In this document: piece after piece, positions 1 through 60,325 of the stretch
Position numbering within the stretch: position 1 is the first letter of the stretch
How the letters are laid out: each line of letters starts with the position of its first letter
NCBI GenBank assembly: GCA_035544955.1
Contig: DASZZN010000044.1
Coordinates: 1 to 64,000, forward strand
From: Candidatus Dormiibacterota bacterium
GTDB lineage: Bacteria > Chloroflexota > Dormibacteria > CF-121
Length of the DNA: 64,000 nt
Reading direction: 5' to 3'
Notes under the pieces: model-generated
The model's database searches: none
What the model was told of the DNA's origin: nothing
What the model saw: the letters and a program-made list of their open reading frames with translations, nothing else
Made by a program: the position numbers and the translations under genes

Positions 1-1317
1 ACCAACGTTCCGGTCAGCGGCGAGATCCGCGCCGACTATCTCAGCCGCCCCGCCCACGATCCGACGATCAAGCTCGACCCGACCGCCGGGGTGACGCTGG
101 ACAACCCGCGTTGGGATGGCACGACCTTCATCGTCGATTACCACGGCCTGCGCGAGAACAGTCTCTACCACGTGGAGCTGGACCAGGACGATTCAGCGCA
201 GGCGGGTGACGGCCAGGAGAACACGAAGCAGACCGGGGAGCAGAAAAAGGGCGGTTCGACGTCCAATAGCGAGCACAAGCAGATCAAGGTGCGCTGGTCA
301 TTTCGCACCGGCACGCTTCACGTGGCAACCCCAACCCCCATCGTCTCCACGCCGACGCCGACGTCGAGGCCAACTCCGACGCTCTCCGTCACGCCGACGG
401 CTTCACCGTCGCCGACGCCAGACCTCATCTGGTACAGCGGCGACAGCATACCGGGAACTGTCGCATCAAATGGCGTCGACTGGAATGGCAAACGACTCAA
501 GACGGCGCGATGGGTCGGTACGCTGCAAGCTCCGGACGGCCGGCTGATCTATAACGCGATCACCCCGAGCACCGACATCTACGATGCCGACGGCACCATG
601 GCCGGATCCATTGCCGCTTCACCAGCGATGTGGGCCGACGATAGCCGCCAGTTCTGCGGGGTCAGCTACCAGGCGGCATCGGCGACGCGCAGCCTTCTCC
701 TGCTGCGGCTGGACGGGACCGTGCATATTGTCGGGCCGGTCGCGCTCCAGGATGGTGGCGGCAAGCCGGTCCAGACCGTGTCGGTTGTGGCCTGCAGCGG
801 CCTGACCGGCCGCGCCGTCGTCGTCGGCTCGTCCGACGGATTCAACTGGAGCAGCGCCATGATCTCACTTACCGATGGCAGCGTCATCTACCAGATGCGC
901 TACCCCAACCCACCGACTCGGTTCGCTGCCAGTCACGATGGCCATTACATCGCCGAACAGATGGGCGGTGGGTCGGCGACGCTGATCCGGGAGTTACCGA
1001 GTGGCACGGTGGTGGGACAGGTCACAGGCATCACGGTGCAGGGGTTCTCCTGGGATGGCACCCTGGTCGCCGGTGGCATTCAGGGCAACAGCGGTTTCAC
1101 CGGCGCCGAGGTCATTCGCTGGCAGGACCGGCAGGTTGTCTGGAACCGATGCGGCTGCCCCTCGCCCTTCCAGGTCAGCGTGATCGCGCAACCGAACGGC
1201 AGCAAAGTCGCCGTCGGGACGCTCGATCAACATCGCATGGGCACGGTCACCATCGTCGATGCCAGCGGCGCGGCCCAGCGAGTCGTGGCCAACAAGCCTA
1301 TCCAGCTGATTTTCTAG
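1..1317 (+). CDS. Surface protein with Ig-like domain, Pro/Thr linker and beta-propeller (5' end outside window)
   Basis: The frame is open from base 1, so the true start lies upstream of the window. The first ~100 visible residues resemble a bacterial Ig-like (SbsA/Big_5 type) domain ending in WSFRTG. A Pro/Thr/Ser-rich linker follows (about bases 330-420, repeated TPTP units), then about 290 residues of repeated Gly/Asp beta-strand pattern (WDGTLVAGG, WADDSRQF) typical of WD40-like or TolB-like propellers. An extracellular or cell-surface role is inferred; no catalytic motif is visible. It converges on the UbiB-like gene, overlapping its end by 4 bases. The specific function is not recognised. 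Confidence 0.75.
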   Translation, partial: TNVPVSGEIRADYLSRPAHDPTIKLDPTAGVTLDNPRWDGTTFIVDYHGLRENSLYHVELDQDDSAQAGDGQENTKQTGEQKKGGSTSNSEHKQIKVRWSFRTGTLHVATPTPIVSTPTPTSRPTPTLSVTPTASPSPTPDLIWYSGDSIPGTVASNGVDWNGKRLKTARWVGTLQAPDGRLIYNAITPSTDIYDADGTMAGSIAASPAMWADDSRQFCGVSYQAASATRSLLLLRLDGTVHIVGPVALQDGGGKPVQTVSVVACSGLTGRAVVVGSSDGFNWSSAMISLTDGSVIYQMRYPNPPTRFAASHDGHYIAEQMGGGSATLIRELPSGTVVGQVTGITVQGFSWDGTLVAGGIQGNSGFTGAEVIRWQDRQVVWNRCGCPSPFQVSVIAQPNGSKVAVGTLDQHRMGTVTIVDASGAAQRVVANKPIQLIF

Positions 1318-2978
1318 GACCGCCCCGAGCGCAGGATGCTCCAGGCGACATACACGCCCAGAATGCTCGCCAGGACGAAGCCAGCAAGCAAGATGGCGGC
1401 GGTTTGGGGATCGCTGCGCACGTGGTAAGCGGCGAGCAGGACCGCGAGTGCCACCACGAACGCCGCGGTGACAATACCAAGCACCAGGCGATTCGCAATG
1501 CGCTCCAGCCGGCGGAGCAAAGGCTCGAACCCGGTGGGCCGGATCGCCAGCTCGAGATCGCCGCGCTGGAGCGAGCTCAGCAGGCGGCGGAGTTGTTGCG
1601 GAAGTTCCACCCCCAGCCGTGCGAGGTCGATTCCGGCCTGGCCAACCGACCGCCCCCAGCCCAAGGGCGAGAAGTGTCGTGCCATCATCCCCTGCGCATA
1701 GGGCACGAGCACGGTCGTGAACTCGAAGCTTGGGTCCAAGCGAGTCACGAGGCTCTCATGCATCAGGACGGTTTTCAGCAGCAGCGCGTAGCCCGGCGGC
1801 AAATGCAATCGATGCCGGCGGACGACGCCGAGGACGTCGTTGACGACTGGGCGGATCGCAATGTCACCGACCGGTCGGCCGTAGTAGCGAGCCCGCAAGT
1901 GTTCTACATCCCGCTTCAATACCGCGCGGTCGACGTGGTGGCCGGCAACGCCCAGTTCGTACAACGCGTCAACCTGACGATCCGGCTCCTCGCTGGTGTA
2001 CGCGAGCAGGGCCCAGACGAGCTGCTCCTGGATGCGCGGCCCGACGATGCCGACCATCCCAAAGTCGACCACCCCGATCCGCTCGTCCGGCTCGATGACG
2101 AAGTTCCCCGGATGCGGATCGGCGTGAAAGAAACGGTCGCGAAAAACCATCTTCAGCACCATCCGGGCTCCGTTCATCGCGATCCGACCACGGTCGACGC
2201 CGGCCGCATCGAGGCCGGCGAGGTCGTCGATCTTGATGCCGACGAGCCGCTCGAGCGTCAGGACGCGGGCCGTTGTCTGCTCCCAGAAGACACACGGGAA
2301 GTGGACGGAGTCATCGCCGGCGAAGTTGGCGCTAAAGCGTTCCGCATTCCTGCCCTCTCGGATGTAGTCCGTTTCGGCCCGCAACGTCTGTGCGAATTCA
2401 TGGACCAGCCCGACCACGTCGTACTCCTCGGCCACCGGCCAGCGCCGGCTCGCGGTCGTGGCCAGGTTGTGGAGGACGCGCAGGTCCAACTCGATCTGGC
2501 TGACGACATCGGGACGCTGCACCTTGACGACGACGGCCGTCCCATCCGGGAGGGTGGCGGCGTGCACCTGCCCGATCGACGCCGCGGCCAGCGGCACTGG
2601 GTCGAAACTGCCGAATACTTCCTCAACCGGCCGCCCGAATTCGGCCTCGATGATCGAGTTGACGAGACCGGTCTTGAGTGATGGCGCGGCATCCTGGAGC
2701 TTGGCCAACTCAACCTGGTACGCAGCGGGCATGAGGTCGGCTCGCGTCGAAAGGATCTGCCCGAGCTTGATGAACGTTGGGCCAAGCTCTTCCAGTGCGC
2801 GCCGGACGTGCTCCGGGCGTGAGAGCGGCTGCTCGTAGTTGCGGTTGAAGATGCGCTGGAACGGAACAAAGCGCTCCAGGCCCGTGATGCTGATGAAGAA
2901 GCCGAGCCCGTGTCGGGCGAGGACACGGCTGATCTGGCGGTAACGGCGGGCCGTTGATTGCGGAGCGATGCTTGCCAG
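1314..2978 (-). CDS. ABC1/UbiB family atypical kinase
   Basis: This is a UbiB/ABC1/ADCK family protein, known as atypical ATP-binding kinases or ATPases linked to quinone and lipid homeostasis. Visible hallmarks are KLGQ of the N-terminal KxGQ motif (about residue 72), the Ala-rich nucleotide loop AAASIGQVHAA, the lysine in VVVKVQRP, the catalytic loop FHADPHPGN and the metal-binding DFGMVG. Two C-terminal transmembrane helices anchor it. The first ATG in frame (2732) would cut off KLGQ and about 80 family-typical residues (RRYRQISRVLARHG). The frame is open back to a TAG at 2997-2999 and contains no ATG, GTG or TTG, so CTG at 2978 is proposed; the start is uncertain. It is divergent from the phosphotransferase gene. 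Confidence 0.85.
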   Translation of the reverse strand: MASIAPQSTARRYRQISRVLARHGLGFFISITGLERFVPFQRIFNRNYEQPLSRPEHVRRALEELGPTFIKLGQILSTRADLMPAAYQVELAKLQDAAPSLKTGLVNSIIEAEFGRPVEEVFGSFDPVPLAAASIGQVHAATLPDGTAVVVKVQRPDVVSQIELDLRVLHNLATTASRRWPVAEEYDVVGLVHEFAQTLRAETDYIREGRNAERFSANFAGDDSVHFPCVFWEQTTARVLTLERLVGIKIDDLAGLDAAGVDRGRIAMNGARMVLKMVFRDRFFHADPHPGNFVIEPDERIGVVDFGMVGIVGPRIQEQLVWALLAYTSEEPDRQVDALYELGVAGHHVDRAVLKRDVEHLRARYYGRPVGDIAIRPVVNDVLGVVRRHRLHLPPGYALLLKTVLMHESLVTRLDPSFEFTTVLVPYAQGMMARHFSPLGWGRSVGQAGIDLARLGVELPQQLRRLLSSLQRGDLELAIRPTGFEPLLRRLERIANRLVLGIVTAAFVVALAVLLAAYHVRSDPQTAAILLAGFVLASILGVYVAWSILRSGRS

Positions 2979-3006
2979 CCTAGCAGCGGCGCTACGCTAT
3001 GCACCG

Positions 3007-3909
3007 ATGGAAGTCGAGCTGCTGAGCGCTTCGGTCCTGGATCGGGTGCCGGGCTGGAGGGGACGGCCGCGGACGGCCGAGCCGCTCGCCGGCGGGATCA
3101 CGAACCGGAACTACCGGGTGGCCGTCGACGGCGAGGTCTTCGTCGTCCGGATTCCCGCCGAGAGTGGCAGCTTGCTGGGCATCGACCGGCGGGTCGAGCG
3201 CGAGGCCAGCCGCCTCGCCGCGGCCGCCGGGGTCGGTCCCGACGTGATCGCCTTCGTCGAGCCGGAGGGCGTGCTGGTCACGCGCTTCATCGAAGGACGG
3301 CCGGTCCACGACCACGCGGTCCACGAGCCGGTCATGCTGGAGCGAATTGCGCAGTCGCTGCGACGCATCCATCAAGCAGGCTCCATCGCCAGCGTGTTCT
3401 CCCCTTTCCGCGTCGTCGAGGCCTATGCGCTGATGGCCACCCGGCACGGTGGACGCCTGCCGGCGGCGCACGAGCGCGCCCAGGCGGTCGCGGTCACCAT
3501 CGAAGGCGCGCTGTCGCCGCAGCCGCCCGTGCTCTGCCACAACGACTTGCTGAACGCCAACTTCATCGATGACGGCGTTTCCATCCGGATCGTCGATTGG
3601 GAGTACGCCGGGATGGGTGACCGCTTCTTCGATTTCGGCAATTTCGCCGTCAACCATCAATTGACCGAGGACGACGAGGCCCGGTTGCTGGCCGCCTACT
3701 TCGGCCGAGTCGCCAGCGCCCAGCACGCCCGTCTCAAGCTGATGCGCCTGATGTCCGACTACCGCGAAGCGATGTGGGGCGTGCTGCAGCAGGCGATCTC
3801 CGAGCTCGACTTCGATTTCTCGGCCTACGCCGCCAAACACTTCGACCGCCTGCTTACCGGCGCCGCGGATCCACGCTTTGGCGATTGGCTGGAGCAGGCC
3901 ACCGCGTGA
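3007..3909 (+). CDS. Choline/aminoglycoside-kinase-like phosphotransferase
   Basis: This is a protein-kinase-fold phosphotransferase of the APH/choline kinase (LicA-like) family, about 300 aa. The Brenner motif HNDLLNANFI carries the catalytic Asp and Asn. IVDWEYAGMGD supplies the metal-binding Asp, and RFFDFGNFAVN after it is the choline/ethanolamine-kinase signature. The N-terminus has the Gly-rich ATP loop (GGITNRNYRV). ATG at 3007 gives the usual family start; an upstream in-frame ATG at 2968 would overlap the divergent UbiB gene. Its TGA overlaps the GTG of the oxidase that follows (GTGA), so the two are probably co-translated. The substrate is inferred to be a small amino-alcohol such as choline, not proven. 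Confidence 0.85.
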   Translation: MEVELLSASVLDRVPGWRGRPRTAEPLAGGITNRNYRVAVDGEVFVVRIPAESGSLLGIDRRVEREASRLAAAAGVGPDVIAFVEPEGVLVTRFIEGRPVHDHAVHEPVMLERIAQSLRRIHQAGSIASVFSPFRVVEAYALMATRHGGRLPAAHERAQAVAVTIEGALSPQPPVLCHNDLLNANFIDDGVSIRIVDWEYAGMGDRFFDFGNFAVNHQLTEDDEARLLAAYFGRVASAQHARLKLMRLMSDYREAMWGVLQQAISELDFDFSAYAAKHFDRLLTGAADPRFGDWLEQATA

Positions 3910-7105: not shown

Positions 7106-7157
7106 CCCCCCGGCCCTCCCCCACCGTGCTTGTGGGGAAGAGTCGGGGTGGGGGGTC
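7106..7157. repeat. GC-rich dispersed hairpin (copy H1)
   Basis: Directly after the IMPase stop lies a C-rich run (CCCTCCCCCAC) followed by its near complement (GTGGGGAAGAGTCGGGGTG), able to fold into a strong hairpin. It resembles the other CCCTCCCCC/GGGGGAGGG elements in this window, but with more mismatches. It may also act as a bidirectional transcription end between two convergent genes. Confidence 0.55.
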
Positions 7158-12069: not shown

Positions 12070-12128
12070 CTCGGGGCGTCGCCCCACGCGAGTGGCGCGG
12101 GACGTGCCACACGAGCGTTTGAGACGTT
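12070..12128 (+). repeat. Dispersed intergenic repeat, copy A
   Basis: The copy starts CTCGGGGCGTCGCCCC, includes GCGAGTGGCGC and ends GAGCGTTTGAGACGTT. The same blocks recur at 34831-34943 and 48690-48748. GGGGCGTCGCCCC can form a short hairpin. The repeat sits immediately upstream of the MBL gene start and extends that frame if a distal GTG is chosen. No open frame or transposase is associated. Confidence 0.75.
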
Positions 12129-34830: not shown

Positions 34831-34943
34831 GCCGGGCCCGTCGGCCCACGCGAGCGGCGCTCGGGGCGTCGCCCCTCGCGAGTGGCGCTTTAGTGCCATA
34901 CGAGCGATTGAGACGTTAGTGCCAGGCGAGCGTTTGAGACGTT
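34831..34943 (+). repeat. Dispersed intergenic repeat, copy B (longest)
   Basis: The copy contains GCCGGGCCCGTCGGCCCACG (shared exactly with copy C), CTCGGGGCGTCGCCCC and GCGAGTGGCGC (shared with copy A), then two tandem units: GAGCGATTGAGACGTT at 34902-34917 and GAGCGTTTGAGACGTT at 34928-34943, each preceded by TAGTGCCA. It fills most of the gap between the GGDEF-EAL and HtrA-like genes. No coding potential is evident. Confidence 0.8.
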
Positions 34944-45114: not shown

Positions 45115-46024
45115 GCATTACCTGGCTGCCGCACCGTACTTCGGTTGGGATCTGCTGCGTGACGTCCAGGAACTCCTGCGCTACGCCTTTATGCAGCACG
45201 CCTACGAGGCCGGGACGATCGTCGCGCTATCGGCGGGCATCATCGGCTACTTCGTCGTCCTGCGCGGCCTCTCCTTTGCCGCCCACGCGCTGTCGCACAT
45301 CGGCTTCGCCGGCGCAACCGGGGCGGTCCTGTTGGGAGCCGCGCCGATCGCCGGACTGCTCGCCTTCACGATGTCAGCCGGCGCCGTTATGGGCGCCCTC
45401 GGCCAGCGGCTTCGCGGCCGCGATGTGACGATCGGCCTCGTGATGGCGTGGTCGCTGGGCCTCGGCCTTCTCTTCACCGCCCTCTACAAGGGGTCGGCCG
45501 GCCTCGCCATTGGCATCCTGTTCGGTCAGATCTTCGGGATCACGAGTGACGAGGTCGCCGTGACGCTGGTCGCCGGATTGCTCACGGTGCTGGCGCTGGT
45601 CGTCGTTTACCGCCCGCTGCTCTTTGCCACTCTCGACGAGGAGGTCGCTGAAGCCAAAGGCGTGCCGGTTCGCGGTCTGTCCATTGCGTTCATGGTCATC
45701 CTGGCGATCGCCGTCTCGGAGGCGGTGCAGGTCGTCGGGGTCCTCCTGATCTTTGCCCTGATCGTGGCGCCTGCCGCGATCGCTGAGCGCTTCACGACTC
45801 GTCCAAGCCGCGGGGTGCTGCTATCAGCGCTGCTCGCGGTGCTCTTCACCTGGTCGGGCCTGACCGTCGCCTACTACTTTCCCTACCCGGTTGGCTTCTT
45901 CATCACGACGATCGCTTTCTGGAGCTATATCTTGGCGCGGTTAGTTGCCCCCACCCTGACCCTCGCCCGCAAGCGGGGGAGAGAACCCCGCGCGCGTGAG
46001 GAACAGGTCCGGCACTCACCGTAG
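45107..46024 (+). CDS. znuB: Metal ABC transporter permease (ZnuB type), 3' end from a repeat
   Basis: The protein is 305 aa with about eight transmembrane helices and ABC-3 family motifs: YEAGTIVALSAGIIGYFVVLRGLSFAAHALSHIGFAG, GQIFGITSDEV and QVVGVLLIFALIVAPAAIAE. ATG 45107 is chosen; it overlaps znuC. The last 27 or so residues (PTLTLARKRGREPRAREEQ) are encoded by the GC-rich hairpin element at 45948-45988, not by typical permease sequence. The gene overlaps the convergent fur-like gene by 100 bases. Confidence 0.87.
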   Translation: MPEHYLAAAPYFGWDLLRDVQELLRYAFMQHAYEAGTIVALSAGIIGYFVVLRGLSFAAHALSHIGFAGATGAVLLGAAPIAGLLAFTMSAGAVMGALGQRLRGRDVTIGLVMAWSLGLGLLFTALYKGSAGLAIGILFGQIFGITSDEVAVTLVAGLLTVLALVVVYRPLLFATLDEEVAEAKGVPVRGLSIAFMVILAIAVSEAVQVVGVLLIFALIVAPAAIAERFTTRPSRGVLLSALLAVLFTWSGLTVAYYFPYPVGFFITTIAFWSYILARLVAPTLTLARKRGREPRAREEQVRHSP

Positions 46025-48689: not shown

Positions 48690-48748
48690 GCCGGGCCCGT
48701 CGGCCCACGCGAGCGGCGCGCTAGTGCCGGGCGAGCGTTTGAGACGTT
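48690..48748 (+). repeat. Dispersed intergenic repeat, copy C
   Basis: The copy begins GCCGGGCCCGTCGGCCCACG, identical to copy B, then GCGAGCGGCGC, TAGTGCC and GAGCGTTTGAGACGTT. Compared with B it lacks the CTCGGGGCGTCGCCCC block and has only one terminal unit. It lies between the phosphoesterase stop and the CAP gene promoter. Confidence 0.8.
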
Positions 48749-55152: not shown

Positions 55153-55153
55153 T

Positions 55154-55187
55154 CACCCTCCCCCTCTGGGGGAGGGCAGAGTGGGGG
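55154..55187. repeat. GC-rich dispersed hairpin (copy H5)
   Basis: CACCCTCCCCCTCTGGGGG followed by AGGGCAGAGTGGGGG begins two bases after the MFS stop. The perfect stem CCCTCCCCC-TCT-GGGGGAGGG is the clearest example of the element; its outer arm reads CCCCCACTCTG on the other strand. It may terminate transcription of the MFS gene. Confidence 0.75.
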
Positions 55188-57489: not shown

Positions 57490-58172
57490 CACCGTCCCCG
57501 CTTGCGCGCCCCGCTGGCCTCCTTGATGACTTCGCGCAGTGGCAGGGCTTCGAGCGTCAACAGGCGCAGGTCAGCCTCGGTGAGATCCAGGTCGACGGTC
57601 AGCAGATTGGGCACGACGACGCAGTAGAGTCCGGCCGCCTTCGCGGCGTGAATCCCGTTGCTCGAGTCCTCGAAGGCGATCGCCTCGTCTGGCCGCGCGC
57701 CGAGCCGCTCGAGCGTTGTCAGGTAAAGATCGGGGTCTGGCTTGGTCCGCTTCACATCTTCTCGACACACGATGGCATCGAAGTGCCCGCCGATCCCGAA
57801 ACGGTTGAGGTGATCCATCACCCACTTGCGCGTGGAGCTCGATGCGACGGCAGTCTTGAGCCCGAGCTGGCGGGCCGCGACCAGGTAATCGATGACCCCG
57901 GGCAGAAGCTGTTGCAGGGCAGTGGCCTCCTGATAGTAGAGAACCTCGAGCGCCTTGAGCTCCGCCTCGTCGAGTTTGGTGCCGGTTTTCCTGGCCAGGT
58001 CAATCACGGGATCGAAGGGCCCGGATGCGGTGCCAATGATCGTGAGCCACCGTTCCAAGGGCAGCTCCTGGCCATGCTCGCGATAGATCCGTTGCCACGC
58101 CCGAAAGATCGGCACCTCCGTGTCAACGATCAGCCCATCGAAGTCGAAGATTAACGCCCTGATGGCCGCCAT
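57489..58172 (-). CDS. HAD-superfamily phosphatase (beta-phosphoglucomutase-like)
   Basis: The 227-residue protein has HAD motif I DFDGLIVDTE, motif II VASSSTR, motif III Lys in REDVKRTKPDPDLYL and motif IV AFEDSSNGIHAA. The cap-domain region PLERWLTIIGTASG suits subfamily I phosphatases or beta-phosphoglucomutases. ATG overlaps the S9 peptidase stop (TAATG), and its own stop overlaps the oxidoreductase start. The substrate is unknown. Confidence 0.85.
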   Translation of the reverse strand: MAAIRALIFDFDGLIVDTEVPIFRAWQRIYREHGQELPLERWLTIIGTASGPFDPVIDLARKTGTKLDEAELKALEVLYYQEATALQQLLPGVIDYLVAARQLGLKTAVASSSTRKWVMDHLNRFGIGGHFDAIVCREDVKRTKPDPDLYLTTLERLGARPDEAIAFEDSSNGIHAAKAAGLYCVVVPNLLTVDLDLTEADLRLLTLEALPLREVIKEASGARKRGR

Positions 58173-60325
58173 TACAGATTGCGCTGAAAGAACTCGAGGA
58201 TGCGCCGCTCCATATCGACCCGATCGTGCTCGGACCGCGGCATGTGCCGTTCGTTGGGGTAGAGCAGCGATTCGAACGGCTTGCCGGCATCGATCAGCGC
58301 CTGCATCAGGCGGGCCGTATGCCGGAAGTGGACGTTCTCATCGATCATTCCGTGGATGACGAGCAGCTTTCCCTGCAGCCGGTCGATGTGCGTCAATGGC
58401 GAGCCGAGCCGGTACCCCTCCGCATTCTTTTGGGGCGTGCCCATGTATTTTTCGGTGTACGCGGTGTCATACCCCTCCCAGAACGTGACCGGCGCCCCGG
58501 CCACTCCTGCCCTGAAAACGTCCGGCGCCGTGGCCAGCGCCATCATGGTCATATAGCCGCCGTAGCTCCATCCGTAGATCCCAACTCGAGAAATATCCGC
58601 GAAGCCGAGCGTCTCCAACCAGCTCACACCCTCGGCCTGATCGCGCACTTCGATCTGGCCCATGCGGCGGGCGATCGGCGCCTCGAATGCCAGGCCGCGC
58701 CGCGCTGAGCCCCGGTTGTCGACCTTGAGGACGACGAAGCCCTGCTGAGCCAGCATCTGCGCCCGTAAATCCACCGTCTGCGCCCAGCTGTCGCTGACCA
58801 TCTGCGGCCCCGGCCCGCCGTAGACCGAGACGATCACCGGCGCGCCGCCCCCACCCTGACCCTCCCCCGCGCGCGGGGGAGGGGAATCTGGGCTCGGTCG
58901 ATAGATGGCCGCGTGCAACGCAACGCCGTCGCTTGCCCGAAATGCGTGCAACTCGGGTGGCGGTAGATCGAGATCGACCGGCGCTGCCTCATGGATGACG
59001 TGCTGTGGCACACCGGTCATGCTCCGCACCGTGATGCTCGGCGGATGCTCCCGGCTATCCCAGACGTCAACGAAGCTCGAGAAGTCCGGCGCGATCGCCA
59101 CGCCATGCATCCCCGGCTCCGATGTCAGCCGCTCCGGCTCCCCGCCGTCGAGCGAGACGCGGAAGAGGCGGCGCTCGAGTGGGCTCTGCTGCCAGCCGAC
59201 GAAATAGAGCTGCCGCCCTTTTTGGTCCAGGGCCACCGTCGCCTCGGCCGGCCACGCGCCCGTGGTCAGCTGCCTGACGAGTGTCCCATCGGGCCCATAT
59301 AGAAATAGGTGTCGAAAGCCACTCCGCTCGGACGACCAGGTGAACTCACCGGTCGACTCGATGACGCGCAGATCGTTGTGCAGGTTGATCCAGGGCTCCT
59401 GGTTCTCGATCAGGAGCGTCCCCCACTCTGACCCTCCCCCGCGAGCGGGAAAGGGAGAATAAGCACGGAGCTCGAGGCGTTTCCAGTCCCGGGAGAGCCA
59501 CTGGACCAGCAGGCGACCATCGGGATGCCAATCGACCCGTGCGATATAGCCCTCGTCGCTGCCGAGGCCCAGGAAGGTCGCCGCACCGCCGTCGACGGAG
59601 ACCACGCCCAACCTGACTCGGGCATTCTCCGCTCCGGCAAATGGATAGCGGTGCTCCTCGATCTCGAGCGCCGCCTTGGCCTGGTGCACGATCGGAAAGA
59701 CCGGAATGCGCGACTCGTCGACCTGCTCGAAGGCGACCATGTCCCCGCGGGGCGAGGGCCAGTATCCGCTCAAACGATCGAGCTCCTCCTGGGCCACGAA
59801 CTCGGCCAGCCCGTTGGTCGTGCCGGGTGGATGCGAGGTCAACCGGCGTTCCTGGGCCCGCTCGATGGTCCAGACATCGCCCTCGCGAACGAAGAAGATC
59901 CGACGGCCGTCATCCGTGATCGTGGGATCGATGACCCCCCCGCCCGCGAGGCGTGAGACCGACCCCTCGGCCCAGCCGTAGAGCTCGCCCCGCAGTGGTA
60001 GCAGCATGACGTTCGCCTTCTCGGCCCAGATGTAGTCGGTGATGCCCGTCTCCCGCAAGCGCAGACGTTCGCGCCGAAGCGTCTCCTCGTGAGAGATGTT
60101 CTCCTCGGTCACCGTCTCGCCGGGCGGCGAGAGAAACCGCTGCCTTCGTCCGCTGGCAAGGTCCAGGCTCCACAGATCACGGGCCAGGTCGCCACGCTCG
60201 CTGAACAAATAGGTGATGAAGGTTGCGTCCGGCGAATACCGGATCTTGCCGGGGATCGCCATCCCGGGTCGTGGAAAGTGCGCGACCTGTTCGGGGGTGA
60301 TCTGACTTCGCGCTGCCGTTTTCAT
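58172..60325 (-). CDS. S9 (DPP-IV-like) peptidase carrying two hairpin elements in frame
   Basis: The 717-residue protein has the DPP-IV-type N-terminal propeller with the substrate-anchoring Glu pair in AEFVAQEELDRLSGYWPSP. The catalytic domain has VIVSVYGGPGPQMVSD, GWSYGGYMTMMAL (Ser), HGMIDENVHF (Asp) and PNERHMPR (His). Two Pro/Gly-rich insertions, SPFPARGGGSEW in the propeller and PSPDSPPPRAGEGQGGGGAP just before the catalytic domain, are encoded by the hairpin elements at 59420-59457 and 58848-58884. The frame is preserved in both, so the protein should still be made. It heads an operon with HAD and the oxidoreductase. Confidence 0.87.
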   Translation of the reverse strand: MKTAARSQITPEQVAHFPRPGMAIPGKIRYSPDATFITYLFSERGDLARDLWSLDLASGRRQRFLSPPGETVTEENISHEETLRRERLRLRETGITDYIWAEKANVMLLPLRGELYGWAEGSVSRLAGGGVIDPTITDDGRRIFFVREGDVWTIERAQERRLTSHPPGTTNGLAEFVAQEELDRLSGYWPSPRGDMVAFEQVDESRIPVFPIVHQAKAALEIEEHRYPFAGAENARVRLGVVSVDGGAATFLGLGSDEGYIARVDWHPDGRLLVQWLSRDWKRLELRAYSPFPARGGGSEWGTLLIENQEPWINLHNDLRVIESTGEFTWSSERSGFRHLFLYGPDGTLVRQLTTGAWPAEATVALDQKGRQLYFVGWQQSPLERRLFRVSLDGGEPERLTSEPGMHGVAIAPDFSSFVDVWDSREHPPSITVRSMTGVPQHVIHEAAPVDLDLPPPELHAFRASDGVALHAAIYRPSPDSPPPRAGEGQGGGGAPVIVSVYGGPGPQMVSDSWAQTVDLRAQMLAQQGFVVLKVDNRGSARRGLAFEAPIARRMGQIEVRDQAEGVSWLETLGFADISRVGIYGWSYGGYMTMMALATAPDVFRAGVAGAPVTFWEGYDTAYTEKYMGTPQKNAEGYRLGSPLTHIDRLQGKLLVIHGMIDENVHFRHTARLMQALIDAGKPFESLLYPNERHMPRSEHDRVDMERRILEFFQRNL
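58848..58884. repeat. GC-rich dispersed hairpin (copy H6) inside the S9 peptidase
   Basis: CCCCCACCCTGACCCTCCCC then CGCGCGCGGGGGAGGGG. This is the full element with a perfect CCTCCCCCGCG/CGCGGGGGAGG stem, in coding sequence and read without frame change. It encodes the Pro/Gly-rich loop before the catalytic domain. Confidence 0.8.
59420..59457. repeat. GC-rich dispersed hairpin (copy H7) inside the S9 peptidase
   Basis: CCCCCACTCTGACCCTCCCC then CGCGAGCGGGAAAGGGAG. The left arm is nearly identical to copy H6, and the right arm has decayed by a few changes. It lies in the propeller-coding part and keeps the frame. Confidence 0.78.

Follow-up and report, generated by a model that had tools for sequence, protein, structure and literature searches.

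The S9 peptidase gene and its two repeat copies

The window, the whole 64,000-nucleotide stretch of DNA that was analysed, belongs to a draft MAG of Chloroflexota (3.67 Mb in 52 contigs; the source genome below), and its GC content is ~66% at the stretch described here. An S9 peptidase gene of DPP IV type lies on the minus strand at 58172..60325 and, as the preliminary description had stated, is intact around both of its repeat copies: it forms one open frame of 717 aa without a stop. The protein is identified by its propeller and hydrolase domains, its Ser/Asp/His residues and its fold. Pfam places the DPPIV_N propeller domain at residues 130–429 and the Peptidase_S9 domain at 518–717; S587, D662 and H694, which we take to be the S9 catalytic triad, are invariant in an alignment of 27 sequences; and the structure predicted from that alignment (mean pLDDT 90.1) matches bacterial DPP IV (5yp4_D) with Z = 45.1 over 683 residues (rmsd 2.1).

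Two copies of a palindromic element, both on the plus strand, are read through in this gene, one in the propeller and one ahead of the catalytic domain, where they had been placed before. The copy in the pre-catalytic linker (core 58848–58886, 64.5 bits with a covariance model) is assigned a 42-nt unit, 58847..58888, whose extent is carried over from the debranching-enzyme comparison described below; on the minus strand it is read as DSPPPRAGEGQGGG, at about residues 480–493, ahead of residue 518. The copy in a propeller turn (39-nt core, 59420..59458, 56.8 bits) is read on the minus strand as SPFPARGGGSEWG in a different frame, at about residues 290–302, within 130–429. The shared sequence first noticed in the two is CCCCCACYCTGACCCTCCCC, exact in both from 58848 and 59420 and followed in each by the other hairpin arm. 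The GC hairpin had likewise been ascribed to both copies. It is strong as single-stranded DNA in the pre-catalytic copy (–13.2 kcal/mol, z = –2.49), but imperfect and not clearly above shuffles in the propeller copy (–6.5 kcal/mol, z = –0.88).

In the predicted structure, stretches of at least three residues with pLDDT below 50 are confined to residues 1–5, 295–297 and 487–491. The first is the N-terminus and the other two are the element loops, each flanked by two strands in the model. The low pLDDT at these loops is consistent with tolerated surface loops, and the thin alignment (27 sequences) may partly account for it. Three more element copies were found in the window by the covariance model. 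One at 45948..45986 (plus strand, 46.6 bits) sits towards the 3' end of a reading frame, to which it would add a C-terminal extension; one at 55153..55187 (minus strand, 34.6 bits) was not called in a gene; and a weak one at 7111..7154 (minus strand, 27.7 bits) falls under the 28-bit cut and is excluded from the counts.

The repeat family and the search for a transposase

The element is a GC-rich asymmetric palindromic repeat of ~39–42 bp with a consensus close to CCCCCACCCYGACCCTCCCCCGCAAGCGGGGGAGGGARA, laid out as an unpaired 12-nt lead and then a hairpin of 10–11 bp. Allowing up to 2 mismatches, the 20-mer CCCCCACYCTGACCCTCCCC has 42 matches in the source genome, and the reversed pattern has 0. 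The covariance model, built from 16 full-length copies and used with an E cut-off of 0.05 (its E-values are rough), gave 129 matches at 112 distinct places once overlapping two-strand matches were merged; the 107 copies of at least 28 bits were counted and the remaining five places, all below 28 bits, were left out. Target site duplications, the mark of a MITE of a DDE transposon, showed no excess over shuffles at 2–8 bp in 82 copies, the ends of which are uncertain by a few bases. Positions 58600–59700 gave no Rfam match up to E = 1. A literature search yielded no description of the element, and among the matches listed for a DNA-word search none was on bacterial repeats by title. The source genome also holds a second repeat family, GTGCCAGGCGAGCGTTTGAGACGTT and its neighbours, at 17 places (up to 3 mismatches; reversed control 0), four of them in the window (12104–12128, 34893–34917, 34919–34943 and 48724–48748). 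A copy of this second family stands next to an element half near 1919–2020 of locus L023, in an open frame that resembles Ku by eye.

With one mismatch allowed, the 20-mer occurs in 30/61 genomes, namely 18/18 of the family of the source genome and 12 of one other family of the class. In a sample of the phylum it has matches in 67/400 genomes, and the high counts are scattered over a few families. Lone matches in these surveys may be chance, the reversed pattern giving single matches in 3/61 and 9/400 genomes.

One alternative is that a RAYT, an IS200/IS605-type tyrosine transposase, mobilised the element as a REP in the manner of GTAG REPs, with the gene missed, unassembled or lost. The hairpin and the size of the element are REP-like, the family genomes are incomplete drafts, and REP families can outlive their transposase, missing REPtrons being noted in the part of the intragenic REP catalogue that concerns them (PMC3733652). 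Against this, neither the Y1 transposase model (PF01797, Y1_Tnp) nor the NCBIfam RAYT model NF047646 matched in the drafts of the family (0/18 genomes each), while the positive controls gave matches in 5 and 6 of 14 named genomes. Nor was there any sign of a link between element and Y1_Tnp in the phylum sample: Y1_Tnp was found in 5/19 genomes with at least 10 element matches, 8 of which belong to the element's own family, vs 154/381 others (P = 0.24). The GTAG tag, moreover, is not in the consensus (GTAG or CTAC occurs anywhere in 16/107 copies). We regard mobilisation by a RAYT as rather unlikely, whether its gene was missed, has since been lost from the family genomes or lies in their unassembled part. 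In four distant Chloroflexota genomes (G144, G282, G318 and G349) the element pattern matches between 42 and 125 times and Y1_Tnp not at all; they would be good places to seek the copying enzyme.

Copies inside genes: frames, sites and borders

In-gene copies were scored among the 107 by codon usage on both flanks, the element itself being excluded. Further in-gene copies across the genome, which the preliminary description had suggested looking for, do exist, though most copies lie outside genes: 31/107 are internal to an open frame with coding support (21 strong calls and 10 weaker ones, the pre-catalytic S9 copy among the latter), 13/107 lie at C-termini and 22/107 at called N-termini. By the same test, 2428/3000 random positions in the same loci (81%) are in genes, a depletion of copies with P ~6e-30. 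The result was replicated with three further genomes (two from the genus, one from the family), where 28/62 copies (3 near contig ends left out) vs 1271/1500 random positions are in genes. Most insertions into genes thus seem to have been purged.

The copies that remain are found in a range of unrelated proteins. Besides the peptidase, 26 open frames have internal copies; a Pfam family was assigned to 20 of them and none to six. The assigned hosts include a DNA primase, the glycine cleavage T protein (GcvT), an ABC transporter, two 2-oxoacid dehydrogenase acyltransferases (E2), a glycogen debranching enzyme, an FAD-binding monooxygenase-like protein and an AMP-binding enzyme. Some inserts are interdomain, as in the ABC transporter, with its membrane part extending to residue 418, the insert at 454–467 and the ATPase from 486. 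In locus L156, an open frame of 839 aa (1089–3605, minus strand) has a luciferase-like domain at 198–490, a UbiA domain at 560–795 and an element copy at 524–535 between them; perhaps two genes were fused or read through by the element. Another frame (L192, 3–2642, minus strand) is of E2-E1 fused 2-oxoacid dehydrogenase type and has two element copies in linkers.

All six reading frames are represented among the 31 in-gene copies, and they are not used equally. In the commonest (13/31) the gene runs antisense to the CCCCC strand and the peptide resembles PPPLAGEGQGGG; the second frame accounts for 8. This bias has P ~0.005 after correction for six frames, and 0.025 for the 21 strong copies, in a set that includes the S9 copies that raised the question. 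The same frame was found in 13/28 copies of the three other genomes (P = 2.3e-4 vs one sixth), which makes 26/59 when both samples are pooled. These counts exclude the C-terminal (13) and N-terminal (22) copies, the latter because a start may have been misread in such calls. Independence of the samples is incomplete, as some genes carry two copies and the same kind of gene, D-Ala-D-Ala ligase-like or E2-like (named by eye), recurs in two genomes. The dominant frame points to selection against harmful frames. Purging by frame is the simplest reading, since an inserting agent can hardly know the frame of a gene.

Comparison among relatives gave filled and empty sites in the same genes, and S9 peptidases without the loop exist at both sites. 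Of 11 family genomes scored at the pre-catalytic site, 4 are filled (the source genome, G001, G008 and G013), 6 are empty with a 5-residue linker each, and G012 has a short stretch that is perhaps a remnant. G013 seems to carry two units at this site, in another frame. The propeller site is filled in 2/8 genomes (source genome and G001) and empty in 6/8. Elsewhere in the genus, the loop is filled in 4/7 genomes for the FAD monooxygenase-like protein, 2/12 for the debranching enzyme (a doubtful G013 being scored empty), 2/10 for the ABC transporter, 4/13 for GcvT (one of them degenerate) and 1/13 for an FAD oxidase (GlcE-like). The DnaG and MFS panels do not enter these counts, since rearrangement of their linkers prevents scoring by eye; pieces of the element seem to be present in several DnaG rows. 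In GcvT of G006 (L258), four tandem 33-nt element-like units stand in one loop and add ~39 residues. At the S9 loops, the close relatives with filled sites carry element-like DNA and not unrelated DNA.

In a tree of joined flanks, the source genome stands beside G003, G010 and G012 (support 92), several other nodes having support of 57–66. G003 and G012 retain a native-looking propeller turn, and the propeller copies of the source genome and G001 are different sequence types; two separate gains are therefore likely at this site, separate insertion being the likelier account than shared ancestry as far as these sequences indicate. For insert-bearing relatives at the two S9 sites in general, either shared ancestry or separate insertion would serve. 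The genomes compared are all drafts of different species, and so any present mobility is conjectural.

The borders were expected to coincide with the element ends, and related peptidases to have short linkers at both sites. Short linkers were found at the pre-catalytic site, where the net difference is 12 codons (17 vs 5), within one codon for a 39-nt unit and two codons short for a 42-nt unit, so that the gap nearly matches the element. Neither expectation holds at the propeller site: relatives without the insert have ~8–9 residues there, which means that about eight native residues are missing, and the net difference is 5–6 codons. In the debranching enzyme, the source genome differs from the sister clade G003/G010 by exactly 14 codons at one point, corresponding to a 42-nt unit. 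The net difference is 11 codons in the FAD monooxygenase-like protein, 9 in GcvT and 5 in the ABC transporter. Borders are thus mostly not exact, the net insert being smaller than the element at most compared sites. Exact insertion of 39 or 42 nt at every site is rejected, as the debranching enzyme alone fits exactly among the sites compared. At the other sites, insertion seems to have been accompanied by the disappearance of native loop residues, whether at once or afterwards.

Whether the host might keep or favour such Pro/Gly-rich linkers, because they improve or tune its proteins, was also weighed. Adaptive loops would account for the preference for one frame in both of the separate samples and for the recurrence of inserts in the same loops across several species. 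But all six frames occur, copies are depleted in genes, and relatives with empty sites keep open genes; the frame bias itself needs no benefit, since purging of bad frames explains it. We consider an adaptive role quite improbable. Low-complexity Pro/Gly linkers are encoded by codons rich in C and G where the GC content is 66%, and might look like the palindrome through chance or convergence, with no element in the genes at all. This reading is rejected as barely credible: the reversed pattern has 0 matches in the genome, exact DNA is shared in different frames, and orthologues differ by presence and absence. An assembly artefact is equally far-fetched, for although repeats can mislead assemblers and may be misplaced into genes of a 52-contig draft, no frame is interrupted and both flanks have coding support, usual sequencing reads are longer than a 40-bp repeat, and the orthologous loops are filled in two separately named MAG records, in CF_106 at both sites and in CF_80 at the pre-catalytic one.

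Proposed course of events and relation to known repeats

Our preferred reading, held with considerable confidence, is that the S9 loops are copies of a short palindromic repeat that has multiplied in a Chloroflexota family and persists in genes as tolerated predicted linkers. Copies would insert at more or less random places, and those that break genes would be removed by selection. The copies that persist would be the ones that fall at a surface turn or in a linker between domains, keep the frame by their length and have a harmless Pro/Gly-rich reading, and they would be tolerated as linkers; loops relaxed in this way may then gather repeated insertions, tandem duplications and losses of neighbouring residues. 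The hairpin suggests a single-stranded DNA intermediate, on which some non-RAYT enzyme, or one that has since disappeared, might act. The element had been called 'selected or tolerated' as protein-coding. Toleration fits the loop positions, while selection enters just as frame-dependent purging of bad insertions.

More speculatively, and with a good deal of doubt, the element might represent a third, untagged class of REP-like repeats that has spread independently of RAYTs through several Chloroflexota lineages. Its 42-bp unit, with 14 codons, no target duplication and mostly open frames, would then be inherently fit to enter proteins and would keep reshaping core-enzyme loops in one species after another. 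Rickettsia and some REP-rich genomes already provide examples of in-frame palindromes; the present ones come from another phylum, and the 18 genomes of one family allow filled sites to be set against empty ones for each gene. If the proposal is true, three questions become open to testing: how mobile DNA is accommodated by proteins, in which frames and loops it is tolerated, and what multiplies REP-like elements in genomes that yield no RAYT.

REPINs are REP pairs in inverted orientation, and the element is unlike them in that only 6/107 copies lie within 200 bp of another, as three pairs of which one is inverted. With GTAG REPs it shares a short hairpin, a high copy number (112 places) and a location mainly outside genes and sometimes inside; it differs from them in having no GTAG tag, no RAYT found in the family genomes and few close pairs. 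Among the bearers of GTAG elements is T. roseum, presumably a member of Chloroflexota as well. The GTAG elements of T. roseum are described as clustered at few loci in the pertinent part of the 2013 catalogue of intragenic REPs, which distinguishes GTAG and CGTC families and lists most intragenic copies in Opitutus terrae and Rickettsia conorii (PMC3733652). According to that catalogue, CGTC REPs occur within genes and are apparently without a dedicated transposase (PMC3733652). The element is like them in both respects and unlike them in sequence, with no CGTC tag in its consensus (CGTC or GACG occurs anywhere in 5/107 copies). The intragenic MITE-like sequences of enterobacteria (RU elements), as outlined in sections of PMC2759123 and PMC2229807, are small non-autonomous repeats of 103–168 bp that lie within genes and add peptides. 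Our element resembles them as a small repeat within genes, but it is 39–42 bp long and no target duplication was detected.

The closest parallel had been drawn with the Rickettsia palindromic elements (RPEs). These are presented, in the parts of PMC3733652 and PMC10969869 devoted to them, as palindromic repeats in frame within unrelated genes that are thought to survive where the protein tolerates them; a CGTC tag at one end is given for RPEs, RPE-4 and RPE-6 being CGTC-tagged (PMC3733652), and a size of ~150 bp, often in frame, is given in the 2024 review (PMC10969869). The likeness holds for a palindromic element that stands in frame within many protein genes, as loops, with orthologues lacking the insert. 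It does not extend to size (39–42 bp), the CGTC tag, the Chloroflexota host or the location of most copies, which lie outside genes. The element is set apart from both RPEs and REPs because its consensus has neither tag, its length falls short of that of RPEs, and the family genomes yielded no RAYT. Apparently, then, it works like the RPEs without being a member of that group, as an untagged and seemingly RAYT-less variant.
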